A DNA stretch of 64,000 nt from Trametes villosa (taxonomy: Eukaryota > Basidiomycota > Agaricomycetes > Polyporales > Polyporaceae). The first letter of the stretch is position 1, and each line of letters starts with the position of its first letter. The notes beneath the pieces were generated by a model, which did not search any database, was not told where the DNA came from, and was given only the letters and a program-made list of their open reading frames with translations. Where the stretch lies: contig PUDQ02000034.1 of the NCBI GenBank assembly GCA_002964805.2, forward strand, positions 248,001 to 312,000, given 5' to 3'. Positions 41,720-59,325 of this stretch are shown here, piece after piece. The position numbers and the translations under genes were made by a program.

Positions 41720-43682
41720 CTACGGCTCTCCAGAAAGGTCTTCAAACCGGACAGTCGACGGCGTCTCCGGGAGCTCAATATCCACCGGATGGTGCAGGTC
41801 CGCAAACAGCGGGTCCGCGGCCGTCCGCAGCGTGTCCGCCTCCGTCTCGTCCGTCTCGTCCGTCCCGTCCGTCTCCCACGTCCCGCCGCTCCACCCGCTG
41901 CCCGTGCTGAATCCGCGTGCATGGCGCTTGAACGTGTCGAGCGGCGCGCCCATGTTGCCGACGACGCTCGTGGAGAAGCGGAGGCGCGAGAGCTCGGCGC
42001 CGCCGGGCGCGAGCGTGTCGGCGTCGGTGTACGCCGAGTCCGCGTGCGAGCGGAGCGTGTCCGCGAGGTAGACGCCGCGCAGGTCGAGCATGAAGCGGCA
42101 GGAGAAGATGACGGTGAAGCTGCGGGACCGGGAAGGCCGGGGTGCGCGTCAGTACTGGGGAGTCGGACGGAGGGGGGAACGAGAGGGAGGGAGGGACGTA
42201 CACTTGGTCGAAGTAGGGCCAGACGTCCCAAAGAACGAAAGACTGGAGAGCAGGAAAGGGTGAGTAGAGTGGTAGGGCGGCAACTCAAGGTTCCATGACT
42301 AACATTCCCGACCTAGCAGGGTCCGGGCGTTAGCTGCGGTGCACAGCGCGGATCTGTAGGCGCACTCACCGACACGGAGACGATCCCGCAAATCTGGATG
42401 ACCAAGATGATGCTAGCAAATCCGAAAGCCCACAGCTCAGCATGGCAGGAAGCCTTATGCCCCGGTCGGAGACTCACAGGAAGTAAATCGTCCCTAAGGC
42501 CAGTCAGCCTCGTTCATCAGGTGGGGGGAGAGAACCGCTCACCATCGCGGAGAAGGAGCGTCACCAGCGGCGTGCGCAGCCCCAGCCGGCGCGACTCCCG
42601 CTGCATACCGAGGGTGCGCAGCCAGGTCAAGACGAGGACGGTTGCGTCGAGCGCGAGCCCTGCAGCACGCGAAGCGATACCCACTGAACGGCAACTAGGT
42701 CAGCTCCGTGCCGCAAAAGAAAAGACTCGTCATCGCGGCTGCTCACATCTATGACAAGCCGTGAGTGTCTGGCGCGGGATTACGGCAGAGACCTGACTCA
42801 CTGTGCATACAGCGCGTTGTCGATAACGGCCCCGCAGCCGAAGAGCGGCCCTCCGAAAGCGATTGGGGTGTAATGTGCCTGGTTGTACTAGTAGAGGTGC
42901 AGGGTAAGCAGGATTTTCAACCGACAGGCAGGCTTCTCGACTAGTCACTCACGATACTCAGGATGGGTCTGACAGGTGTAAGGATGGCAAGGAGGGTGAC
43001 AGGAAACCAACCCCTCCCCCAGATTCCGCGAGCTCGGAGCATCAGGAACACTGAGCATAGCGCGAACGTGGTTAGTGCGAGGCAGTCGGTCTGGTATGTG
43101 GTGCAGAAGGCCCACCTCCGAACATGAGATAGCTGATGTCCGTGAGGACGTCGTCTAACCGTAGAACGGGGACGCAGCTGTAAAAAGATGTCAATCCTGA
43201 CATATCAACCACATAACCACATATACATGCCTCTGAGAAACATGACGTGAGTTGCTATAGCCTGGTCAAAATATGTAATCGCCCACTAACCTCATCCTCC
43301 ACCGTCGGGAGAAACACGCTGACCAACAGCACTATCCGCTCCGCAACGGCCACATAGCGCGTAATGAGGAAAACGGCGGTCGCCCCCGTAAACCGCCTGC
43401 GCCATATCCGCTGCACCTCGCTCGTGAATGTCATGAACGTGTCCGCGAAGAGGAGGGCTGCGCCGTCCGCTCGATCATCCATAGGTGCAAACATCACGAA
43501 ATAGCGCGACGCTTACCCGACGACGCGATGATGCAATAGTTTTCGACCAAACTGTGTGCATCCGCGAGGACGTTAATAGGTCTCAGATCTCGATGGAGTA
43601 GTAGGAGCGGTGCTGCTCACACTCTGCCGTAGGCGGCGTATATCTCCTGGGTGAGGTCCCCGTCCGCGTCGTCGGAAGACAT
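41720..43682 (-). CDS. DUF6533 multi-pass membrane protein A, with two 2-nt microexons
   Basis: Thirteen exons: 43682-43621, 43551-43517, 43457-43291, 43232-43231, 43177-43116, 43050-42953, 42887-42802, 42748-42747, 42683-42543, 42493-42478, 42412-42370, 42242-42202, 42119-41720, giving 384 residues. The N-terminal DUF6533 block is clear (ENYCIIASSALLFADTFMTF, EVQRIWRRRFTGATAVFLITRY). Later parts: SCVPVLRLDDVLTDISYLMFG, MLRARGIWGRGW, LGIASRAAGLALDATVLVLTW, TPLVTLLLRDGTIYF, SFVLWDVWPYFDQVFTVIF and SVVGNMGAPLDTF, then an acidic tail. About seven membrane helices are expected. The function of the family is unknown. The reading frame closes only with microexons AG and AT; the intron after the first has a GC donor. 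Tandem paralogue of the next gene. Confidence 0.85.
42747..42748 (-). other. 2-nt microexon AT in DUF6533 gene A
   Basis: It lies between acceptor GTCATAG and donor GTGAGC, with introns of 53 and 63 nt. It joins CA to TG, giving Gln-Leu before GIASR, and moves the frame from phase 2 to phase 1 as the next exon needs. Confidence 0.82.
43231..43232 (-). other. 2-nt microexon AG in DUF6533 gene A (GC donor follows)
   Basis: It lies between acceptor TTTCTCAG and donor GCATGT, with flanking introns of 58 and 53 nt. It joins GAG to C|TGC to give Glu-Ser-Cys. The same AG exon occurs at the same place in paralogues B and C. Confidence 0.75.
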
Positions 43683-44642: not shown

Positions 44643-46559
44643 CTACGGTATATGATGGGCGGTCGTGTGGGCGTCCGGGAGCTCGATGCTCGCCGGGTGA
44701 TGCAGCCCTGCCAAGAGCGGGTCCCTCGCGACCTCCAGCGTCTCGTCCGCGAAGTCGGTGCTGGAGTCGCCGTCGGTGGTGGTGTCCGCGCTGTGTTCCT
44801 TCGCGCCCACACCGAACGTGTCCAGCGGCGCGCCCATGTTCCCGACGACGCTCGAGGAGAAGCGGATGGTGGAGAAGTACGCGGGTGACGAGGGGTCCTC
44901 GGGGCTCTGGCCGGCCGGGCCCGAGTCCGTGCTGCGGTCGCTGAGGTAGACTCCGCGGAGACTGAGCATGAACCGGCACGTAAAGATCACGGTGAACCTG
45001 TGATAATGGTTGTGGTGAGCGTCTCGTCAATGTTTCGGCCGATGTAGCAGCGTACACTTGGTCGAAGTAGGGCCAGACGTCCCAGAGGATGAAGGACTGA
45101 AATCGCCGCAGAGGCAAGGTCAGCGGGTAACCTTGTGTCATACCAGCGGAGTTGAGCTTACACTTCCGACCTACGCGAAAGAGGACATTCAGCATCTTTG
45201 CTTTACACTCGGTGCGAATGTGAACTTACCACGGTGGCAACGATGCTGAAGAGCTGGACAAACAATATGATCCTGGCCGGTGAAATATAGGTAACCGAGT
45301 TGAGCCCAAACGCGACTCTTAGGGTACTCACACGAAGTATATTGTACCTGAAACGAATCAGTCAGTACGTGCGTCCAATCTGCGAACAACATGCACAGTG
45401 CTCACCATCACGGAGAAGGAGCGTCACGAGCGGTGTGTTCATCCCAAGCCTATGGGACTCCCTCTTGATGCTCAACGTCCGTATCCAGGTCAAGACAAGG
45501 ACGAATGTGTCGATAGTGAGGGCAGCGGACCGCGAAGTGATTCCCACTGCGCAGGAGCCTCCAGTCAGCCGCAGCCGCAGACGTCATTAAGCATGAACCT
45601 ACGCCTGCGAGAGCCGTCAATGGCGTATCAGTATCTCTGCCACGACGCCGGAACTTTGACAGACTCACGATCGAATCATGTTGGGTGTCAAATCAAACGA
45701 CGCCCCGCACCCGTATAATGGTGCACCGAAGGCTATAGGGACGTAATGCGCCTGAACGTACTGCGCACGAGTGCGTCAGCCGTGATACGTGGGGTTACGA
45801 CGAGCGATGCGGGTACGCACTATGGTGATGATCGTTCGGACAGGAGTCAGGAGAGCGAGGAACAATATGGGTAGCCACCCTTGCCCCCAGATCCCTCGCG
45901 TGCGGAGCATCATGAAAACTAATGCGATGTACTCAATCAGTGAACGGGTTCCTGCAAACGCTGCGTACGAATGCTTACCTCCGAACATAAGGTAGCTGAT
46001 GTCCGTCAGCGCATCGTCCATGCGCAACACTGGCACGCAGCTGAGTGATAGAGTTAAGCCACATTACTCGACATATAGGAAGGATGAACGAACCTCTGTC
46101 GCAGTCCGCATGACGTTCAGGATCACCTCTCTCACGAACGACCCTGTAGAAGCATGGGCTGACCTTGTCGAGTACCGTCGGCAAGCATACGCTGACGACG
46201 AGTACTATCCGTTCTGCGACCGCGACATATCTCGTGACGAGAAAGACCGCTGTGGCTCCCGAGAACCGTCTGCGCCATATGCGTTGGACTTCATCCGTGA
46301 ACGTGATGATCGTGTCTGCAAAGAGGAGCACTAGTGCAAGGAGACATCTTAGCATCCCGACGGGCTGGCTGAAGCATGGGCTTACCCGAAGATGCAATGA
46401 TGCAATAATTCTCGACGAATCTGCCAGCGACGCGTCGTCAGCCCAATGTTTCGACAAGCGGGAGGAGCCATGCCCTATGGCATTGCGACTGGGAGGCACT
46501 CACATCCGGTCGTATGCCGCCACAATCTCCTGCGTCAGGTCCCCATCGTCGGAAGACAT
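44643..46559 (-). CDS. DUF6533 multi-pass membrane protein B, with two 2-nt microexons
   Basis: Thirteen exons: 46559-46504, 46420-46386, 46330-46164, 46095-46094, 46040-45979, 45918-45821, 45760-45669, 45604-45603, 45546-45406, 45347-45332, 45272-45230, 45096-45056, 44997-44643, giving 369 residues. Nine coding exons have exactly the same length as in gene A (35, 167, 2, 62, 98, 2, 141, 16, 43) and exon 12 too (41). The N-terminus reads MSSDDGDLTQEIVAAYDRIF, then ENYCIIASSVLLFADTIITF and EVQRIWRRRFSGATAVFLVTRY. The tail carries SVVGNMGAPLDTF like A. Identity with A is high in the first 90 residues and lower in the acidic C-terminus. Without the 2-nt exons the gene would look frameshifted twice. 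Confidence 0.85.
45603..45604 (-). other. 2-nt microexon GC in DUF6533 gene B
   Basis: It lies between acceptor CTCGCAG and donor GTAGGT, with introns of 58 and 56 nt. It gives Ser-Leu before GITSR, matching QLGIASR in gene A. Confidence 0.82.
46094..46095 (-). other. 2-nt microexon AG in DUF6533 gene B
   Basis: It lies between acceptor GCGACAG and donor GTTCGT, with introns of 68 and 53 nt. It gives Lys-Ser-Cys (DKSCVPVLRM), matching ESCVPVLRL in gene A. Confidence 0.82.
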
Positions 46560-57564: not shown

Positions 57565-59325
57565 ATGTCTCAGGTGGATCCTCTGGCGCATCTGTGGCCC
57601 GTGTTGCGCAATGCGGACTTGTAAGTGCTGAACAGGCGCGCGGGCCGAGGTTGGGGAGTGGGATTGAACTGGTGCGCGCAGGTCCTTCTTCCTCTCGTGT
57701 GCCGCGACAAGTGCGTACCCTCTTCCTAGGCTGGAGCGTATTCGGGATGAGCTGTGTACTAACTACGAGAACCAGCACTAGCGTTCTACGAGCACCTCAT
57801 TACCATCCGGCTCGAGGCGCAGCAAATATGGAGACGCGATCCGTCTGGAGCGACGATACTGTTCATCATGACACGGTACTTCATGCTCCTCAGCCGCATC
57901 TTCGTCATTCTCGGCTTCTACCCCATCCGAGACGAAGCAGTGAGCATCTACTCGTCTTCGCTTATTCACAGTACTCACGGGCGCCTATTCTACCTACAGA
58001 GGTGAGGGTGCATATACCCCGGCTGCGCGAGCTCCGTTGGTCTGACGGGCATACTGCAGTTGCAGTACCGTACTATGGATACAGGCCATTACGACCTCAA
58101 TACTGATCATCGTGCTATCTGGTCAGTCCAGTTCCCGCTCTACGTTGATCTACCCCGGGTACTAACGGAGGGTCCGCAGCTGTGGCGGCTATCCGCGTCT
58201 ACGCTCTCTGGAACCGCGACTACCGACTGTTGGTGATCGTAATGCTCACAGGCATCATACCCGCGTTCGCAAATCTGGTGAGTGCCCTTCCCATTAGGTG
58301 AGCTCGCGCAATGGTGACGTTTGAGTCTGTCAGTTTTTCCGCGGTGCCTCGACTGCATACATCGTGCCTACCAGGTTCTATACCTGTCAGTCTGCGCCCA
58401 CTGCGATGACGGCGCAAACCTACAAAGCGTGCGTGTTTCTCTGTCTCTTTCGGACACCGAGTATGTACTGACACGCGCTGCAGATGTACGTCTGTATGCG
58501 CAACGGGGTACATCACACGGGAACTAACTTCCGATGGAACCTCTAGTTGCGATTGCGACACGCGTCATCGCCATATTCTCGGACGGTCTGGTCGTCGCCC
58601 TGACGTGGATGAAGACGTTCAAGATCTACGCGCTCACCCGGCATGTGAGGCTCCACGCCGACTATTCCGTGCTCATCCTCCGTGATGGTGAGTAGACGTG
58701 TACTACTGTTGCATGACCATACTATGGTTTGCTTATGAGAATGTATAGGCACTGTGTACTTCCTGTAAGTCTCAAACTCCTGGTTCCGTGTCCTCCGAGC
58801 TTGATGACTAACGTTGACCAGGGCAATATGCGTCCTCAACCTCATCGCGATCCTCTACATTGTGACCACGGTAAGAATCCTCCTCCATTAGTCTCGTTCA
58901 GTATCCTCACGCGTCTTGTCCAATAGGGGACGAATTTGCTAAATGACCTCATCGTAACGTACGTCCCTCCCTATGAGACGCCTCCTTCCCACCTGACCTC
59001 TCCCCCCAGGCTGAGCGCAATCCTCATGGCGCGCTTCCTACTCAACCTCCGCGACCAGCGCGCACACCTCGAGGACAAGGCGTGGCCGGTCGACAGCCCG
59101 TCGACGCTCACGCTCACCGGCACGCTGTCCTCGCCGATGTCGACGCTGCGCTTCCGCTCGGGCGTGCTCGACACGATGGGCGGCACCGTCAGCATGGGAA
59201 CGCGCGAGGGCGAGGACGGCGAGGAGATGGACGGGGTGAGCGACGACGGGTCGGACGAGGACACGCGGTGTGGCGGCGAGTCGTGTAGGAAGGGGAAGAT
59301 GGACGAGGAGAATGCATGGGCGTAG
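57565..59325 (+). CDS. DUF6533 multi-pass membrane protein C, with two 2-nt microexons
   Basis: Thirteen exons: 57565-57620, 57682-57710, 57776-57939, 58000-58001, 58060-58121, 58180-58277, 58334-58428, 58484-58485, 58547-58687, 58749-58764, 58822-58870, 58927-58958, 59010-59325, giving 353 residues. The exon plan is that of genes A and B: exons 1 (56 as in B), 5 (62), 6 (98), 9 (141) and 10 (16) have equal lengths. DUF6533 block: TTLAFYEHLITIRLEAQQIW, RRDPSGATILFIMTRYFMLL. Then SCSTVLWIQAITTSILII, IRVYALWNRDYRLLV, FAIATRVIAIFSDGLVVALTW and ILMARFLLNLRDQRAHLED, with an acidic tail. It is clearly more diverged than A from B. Function unknown. Confidence 0.84.
58000..58001 (+). other. 2-nt microexon AG in DUF6533 gene C
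   Basis: It lies between acceptor CCTACAG and donor GTGAGG, with introns of 60 and 58 nt. It gives Ala-Ser-Cys (EASCSTVLW), at the position of the AG exon in genes A and B. Confidence 0.82.
58484..58485 (+). other. 2-nt microexon AT in DUF6533 gene C
   Basis: It lies between acceptor CGCTGCAG and donor GTACGT, with introns of 55 and 61 nt. It gives Ala-Phe before AIATR, at the position of AT in gene A and GC in gene B. Confidence 0.82.

Follow-up and report, generated by a model that had tools for sequence, protein, structure and literature searches.

Exons shorter than three nucleotides (nt) have so far been reported in single genes, according to the available parts of the cited reports, to which the literature comparisons in this text are limited (PMC12940212, PMC8831610, PMC4674806). 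In the P450 genes CYP621A of Fusarium, a single-nucleotide exon is found in 20–24 orthologues, with RNA reads as proof, and the same report mentions exons of 2–5 nt for Arabidopsis, Drosophila, and humans (PMC12940212). Plant microexons include the 1-nt exons of APC11 and VPS55 (PMC8831610, PMC4674806), and for a 1-nt exon of Arabidopsis, intron definition and successive intron removal were argued in the same way as here (PMC4674806). The microexon of Xlr2 in Trichoderma virens concerns one gene, in which inclusion is regulated by glucose, and its authors described functional microexons as previously undescribed in filamentous fungi (PMC11121469). The present analysis deals with a pair of 2-nt coding exons, at positions termed site 1 and site 2, in the DUF6533 family of Trametes villosa. 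It starts from gene C and its paralogues genes A and B in a window of 64,000 nt (contig PUDQ02000034.1 of assembly GCA_002964805.2, positions 248,001 to 312,000) and extends to family members elsewhere in the genome. A described DUF6533 protein is Snowball (SNB1) of Coprinopsis, which is needed for mushroom development and, according to its authors, fits none of the classes of G-protein-coupled receptors (GPCRs) (PMC10949477). A microexon is defined here as an internal coding exon of 15 nt or less.

The 2-nt units are very probably constitutive coding exons inherited from the family ancestor, the flanking introns of which are removed one by one. In total, 163 such exons were called at two fixed sites in 93 genes of one genome. 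Like the exon of CYP621A, they are fungal nuclear exons of less than 3 nt, revealed by a frame that does not close and accompanied by a relative lacking an intron, and the CYP621A gene models are mostly wrong at the exon (PMC12940212). In contrast to that one exon in one gene, the 2-nt exons of the DUF6533 family come in pairs and recur through a large set of paralogues, where they were recognized from DNA. Plant microexons are likewise ultra-short, long conserved, and often missed by annotation, and in intronless copies the base sits inside a larger exon; they range from 1 to 15 nt in conserved gene clusters, whereas two dinucleotide exons occur in nearly every DUF6533 member (PMC8831610, PMC4674806). 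Xlr2 shares the setting of a filamentous fungus and differs as a single, regulated gene (PMC11121469). The P450 genes of Phanerochaete belong, as here, to a multigene family with small introns in a white-rot basidiomycete, but their shortest exon is 6 bp and their microexons are scattered, with no two fixed sites in the part of the report available (PMC1184071). Stwintrons also consist of two introns that need sequential removal, but with zero exon bases between them (PMC5639578, PMC6616335). SNB1, likewise a DUF6533 protein, is predicted to have seven transmembrane helices; its family has a copy number of 1–5 in a narrower group, and microexons are not mentioned in the available part of that report (PMC10949477). 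No earlier report of 2-nt exons in DUF6533 genes was found in the literature searched, the coverage of which was partial. What differs from known microexons is the scale, with two sites in each gene and their retention through a large paralogous family.

In gene C, both 2-nt exons are flanked by canonical introns (four GT-AG introns of 55–61 nt), and the letters, positions, and intron lengths given for them in a preliminary description of this DNA were read in the sequence without change (Table 1). The coding frame claimed there was also reached, with the exon 3 acceptor placed by profile fit: its length corresponds to a 1,056-nt model made by hand plus 6 nt from the upstream acceptor, which restores the residues LA present in most orthologues. 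The acceptor 6 nt further downstream was rejected, as the profile fit favours the upstream site. The protein, in its 351-residue version, scores 34.2 bits against Pfam DUF6533 (PF20151; cut-off 24.1) and matches proteins of Trametes and other polypores, with one from T. versicolor at the top (73%). Compared with the best model restricted to exons of 9 nt or more, the microexon model gains 50 bits; the statement that gene C needs the microexons holds to this extent and was too strong for gene C taken alone. Retention of the 60-nt intron would also leave the sequence open in frame, as judged by eye. Because single-intron solutions exist and shuffled gaps also yield 2-nt calls, gene C alone is insufficient, and therefore the family was tested.

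The genome (46.7 Mb) contains 137 DUF6533 matches, 124 of them over the Pfam cut-off. The 91 best matches were taken, and the addition of genes B and C brought the family sample to 93 of these 124. The 90 fetched loci gave non-overlapping models, with one pair (L007/L009) being 96% identical. All calls were made with one spliced-profile aligner that permits any exon length, to which GC donors were later added and a penalty on longer introns in the final settings; the counts below are from these final settings. The profile was iterated on the genome's own members, and a profile from gene C orthologues alone failed for genes A and B. A 2-nt exon was called in 84 of the 93 genes at site 1 and in 79 of 93 at site 2, with both units in 73 genes and neither in three. 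At site 1, 81 calls lie at profile position 63 and three at 61–62, with phases 0 then 2 in 84/84; at site 2, 77 lie at position 148, one at 147, and one at 149, with phases 2 then 1 in 79/79. The internal exons no longer than 8 nt, counted over 936 junctions, are the 84 at site 1, 79 of 2 nt and four of 8 nt at site 2, and one elsewhere. When a minimum exon of 9 nt was imposed, the score dropped in 90 of 93 genes at a median cost of 43 bits, the three others being L058, L013, and L018. The pattern AG-N2-GT is present in 82/84 genes at site 1 and 76/76 at site 2, counts that are partly circular because the genes were picked for having the call; the shuffled gaps and the junctions away from the two sites serve as the controls in their place. 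Shuffling of the gaps yielded 2-nt calls in 92/672 cases at site 1 and 115/632 at site 2. At site 2 of L066, a 2-nt call made under the early settings was gone under both later ones. Separately, a 16-nt exon was called at one place, around profile position 196, in 83/93 genes.

As the preliminary description had held for three paralogues, genes A, B, and C all carry both units in the profile fit. Genes A and B score over the Pfam DUF6533 cut-off, and gene B is 90% identical across its core to a T. polyzona protein. The calls in gene B depend on the settings, with neither 2-nt exon called at first, then site 1 only, and both under the final settings; at site 2, one 107-nt intron was preferred under the earlier settings.

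Table 1. Coordinates of the DUF6533 genes and their parts in the window
Feature	Position	Strand	Basis
Gene C, membrane protein gene of the DUF6533 family, coding frame of 1,062 nt in 13 exons	57565..59325	+	Spliced-profile fit, Pfam PF20151
Gene C exon 3, phase 0 at its end, precedes site 1	57776..57939	+	Profile fit
Gene C intron 1a, site 1, 60 nt, GTGAGC..CTACAG	57940..57999	+	Sequence
Gene C microexon 1, AG, bases 1–2 of Ser codon (AG+T)	58000..58001	+	
Gene C intron 1b, site 1, 58 nt, GTGAGG..CTGCAG	58002..58059	+	Sequence
Gene C exon 5, 62 nt, conserved Cys codon after its first base	58060..58121	+	
Gene C exon 7, second conserved Cys, phase 2 at end, precedes site 2	58334..58428	+	
Gene C intron 2a, site 2, 55 nt, GTGCGT..CTGCAG	58429..58483	+	Sequence
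Gene C microexon 2, AT, last base of Ala codon and first of Phe codon	58484..58485	+	
Gene C intron 2b, site 2, 61 nt, GTACGT..CTCTAG	58486..58546	+	Sequence
Gene C exon 9, 141 nt	58547..58687	+	
Gene A, profile-covered core	44946..46407	-	Profile fit
Gene A microexon 1, AG, introns 68/53	46094..46095	-	Profile fit
Gene A microexon 2, GC, introns 64/56	45603..45604	-	Profile fit
Gene B, profile-covered core	42068..43538	-	Profile fit
Gene B microexon 1, AG, introns 58/53	43231..43232	-	Profile fit, final two settings
Gene B microexon 2, AT, introns 53/63	42747..42748	-	Profile fit, final settings only

Variants within the family indicate exonic behaviour of the letters that separate the two introns. 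The sister genes L012 and L076 (by the tree), located on one contig, read CAG-intron-GG-intron-CTGC and CAGGG-intron-CTGC, respectively; one intron is lost and the dinucleotide is kept. In L074, the second intron is missing, and the dinucleotide GA is fused in frame with the next exon. In one clade, site 2 holds an 8-nt exon in L041 and L080, and in L042 and L082 of the same clade the following exon measures 134 nt, equal to the 8 + 126 nt of L080 and apparently fused. The length of the microexon is thus altered by two codons in this clade, to which L028, without a 2-nt call, also belongs.

The gaps at the two sites have medians of 118 nt (site 1) and 121 nt (site 2), about two ordinary introns; the median lengths are 58, 59, 62, and 58 nt for the four flanking introns and 60 nt for the other introns of the family. 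The branch-site-like motif CTNAY occurs in the four flanking introns at frequencies of 0.68, 0.71, 0.90, and 0.71, compared with 0.71 in the other introns and 0.28–0.34 in shuffled sequence. GC donors are found in 3/84 of each site 1 intron class and 0/79 at site 2, where GTGAGT and GTAAGT are the commonest donors; L003 and L089 have GC rather than GT as the donor after the AG of site 1. The letters at site 1 (n = 84) are AG in 63 genes, GG in seven, AC in five, CG in four, GC in two, and GA, AT, and TC in one each, whereas those at site 2 (n = 79) are more varied (AT 31, AC 11, CT 7, plus others). Since the phases and letters differ, the two units are suggested to have arisen separately. The Ser codons at site 1 are AGY in 61 cases and TCN in one, against 573:1206 in the coding sequence of the family overall. 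Donors of intron 1b carry G at +5 at a frequency of 0.63, compared with 0.91–1.00 in the other classes, and this G is present in 34/63 genes with AG at site 1 and 19/21 with other letters (Fisher P 0.003; P 0.03 without the largest clade and 1.0 within it, with kinship uncorrected). Common descent could account for the AG and the relaxed +5 position alike. AG precedes the donor in 68/746 ordinary introns of the family, without a tie to +5; because AG is rare there and unlinked to +5, the AG bias is poorly explained by a general effect of U1.

The proposal that the pair predates the duplications is supported by the proportion of members carrying it and by a tree of 90 members, in which most groups, to either side of the midpoint root, contain both units; this tree was built without the site columns by a quick method, with 32 of 87 inner branches below 80 and an arbitrary root. 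On contig C65 of the same genome, many DUF6533 genes are lined up over some 0.2 Mb (roughly 214,000–407,000), and the genes fetched from it fall nearly all within one 35-gene clade of the tree.

The age of the pair within the wider group was examined with 153 relative proteins from among the matches listed (120 of 318 in one case), of which 141 come from annotated genomes and 12 from short contigs of 1.2–2.8 kb without a genome name. Within ±4 columns, the annotated proteins are free of indels in 45/140 cases at site 1 and 90/141 at site 2, and in 125–134 of 139–141 cases at five ordinary junctions. Of the short-contig proteins, nine are indel-free at site 1, 10 at site 2, and 12 at each ordinary junction, and 12/12 have a residue in the microexon column that precedes the Cys. 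These full-length proteins are P0087, P0089, P0098, P0101, P0111, P0113, P0117, P0125, P0129, P0132, P0135, and P0153; three further short-contig DUF6533 proteins (P0154–P0156) lie outside the alignment. Some inserts in published models resemble introns read as coding, and Ser stands directly before the Cys in models from Lentinus, Fomes, Sparassis, and Pilatotrama (P0042, P0049, P0052, P0085, P0040), as most 2-nt exons of this genome predict. The indel pattern would fit units present across polypores, with loop-length variation explaining part of it. The antiquity suggested in the preliminary description is thereby supported indirectly, by proteins only, as far as the spread to other polypore genera is concerned. 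In a protein search aimed at other fungal orders, 38 proteins were obtained, the named hosts of which apparently again belong to Polyporales.

The DUF6533 proteins are seven-helix, GPCR-like membrane proteins with a fold like that of Ste2, as in class D GPCRs (Ste2-like), and with putative G-protein coupling and ligand binding. In the proposed mechanism, both 2-nt exons would have been present in the family ancestor in this genome and retained through the duplications. Site 1, usually AG, would contribute bases 1 and 2 of the codon preceding the conserved Cys, and site 2 would end one codon and begin the next shortly after the second conserved Cys. Introns of about 60 nt are likely to be spliced by intron definition, and each intron may be recognized in this way. 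As the 3′ and 5′ sites lie 2 nt apart, the two introns of a unit would not be engaged together; they could be excised sequentially, and the dinucleotide would then form the exon side in the second splicing reaction. Omission of the dinucleotide would cause a frameshift and usually a truncated protein. Presence in the mature mRNA is predicted, an expectation favoured by the single-intron losses and the short-contig proteins.

Several observations weigh against this interpretation. The 2-nt call is absent from nine of 93 genes at site 1 and 14 of 93 at site 2, and L058, a near-full model, has neither unit; the genes without a call include partial models (L001, L013, L018, L046, L069), 8-nt exons, and exons fused after the loss of a single intron. 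By eye, site 1 appears degenerate in L073 and L079, L060 has an altered donor, L048 shows read-through, and at site 2 of L023 and L053 a 2-nt exon outside the counts is conceivable. Chance at the shuffled rate could account for some single calls. The profile was trained on microexon-containing models and the site counts depend on it, a dependence that is limited by the shuffles and by the near-absence of small exons elsewhere. Confidence is also slightly reduced because gene B was called only under the last settings. Among proteins, both sites lie in loops of naturally variable length, which inflates the indel counts, and an indel of at least four residues is present at site 1 in 2/12 of the short-contig set. 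P0089, P0101, and P0117 leave less than 180 nt of contig beyond the coding frame, space for at most three such introns, and the short contigs may be spliced RNA, perhaps environmental transcripts; this is a guess, because other short contigs leave more non-coding space. Finally, constitutive inclusion is the most likely mode, but both the order in which the introns leave and the lack of exon skipping are inferred.

The 2-nt exons could also be real and alternatively included, as a switch between a full-length and a truncated receptor. This is unlikely: the weaker +5 position of intron 1b donors and the frequent skipping or retention at these sites in published models, which may be a mere software effect, would agree with it, but the 12 short-contig proteins continue through both sites, and skipping shifts the frame because two bases do not make up a whole codon. 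A single intron of about 118–121 nt per site, in which displacement of the donor or acceptor would restore the frame and AG-NN-GT would arise by chance, is very improbable. Gene C does have such models, which count against the 2-nt exons there: at site 1, a donor 14 nt downstream inserts four residues, and one GC-AG intron of 116 nt at site 2 gives an identical protein. The latter, however, hinges on the GTGC donor of gene C, which is not of the commonest type; the score falls in the 90 genes mentioned above even with GC donors included; a branch-site-like motif precedes the microexon; and single-intron losses exist. Stwintrons, in which a splice site of an outer intron is interrupted by an inner one and the mRNA retains none of the bases, are a known fungal class of back-to-back introns excised in sequence, described from Ascomycota in the abstracts considered, but can hardly apply, since excision of all the ~120 nt gives the wrong frame in gene C, and L076 and L074 retain the dinucleotide as exon after loss of one intron; the units do leave bases in the predicted mRNA.

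With the 2-nt units taken as constitutive ancestral exons, selection may act on the double-intron unit itself as well as on the encoded residue, two splicing checkpoints, each with a frameshift upon failure, gating the repertoire of more than a hundred GPCR-like receptors by stepwise splicing; this idea is tentative and rather doubtful. The site 1 dinucleotide may also be read at the RNA level, and the downstream donor may be relaxed at +5 where site 1 is AG. The counts suggest errors in many published DUF6533 proteins at these junctions, where gene-finding software often seems to fail, and such errors may conceal the likeness of the family to Ste2-type receptors. Together with its intron-loss variants, the DUF6533 family offers a test bed for how the spliceosome handles 3′ and 5′ sites two bases apart, and it is suited to asking why such double-intron units persist.
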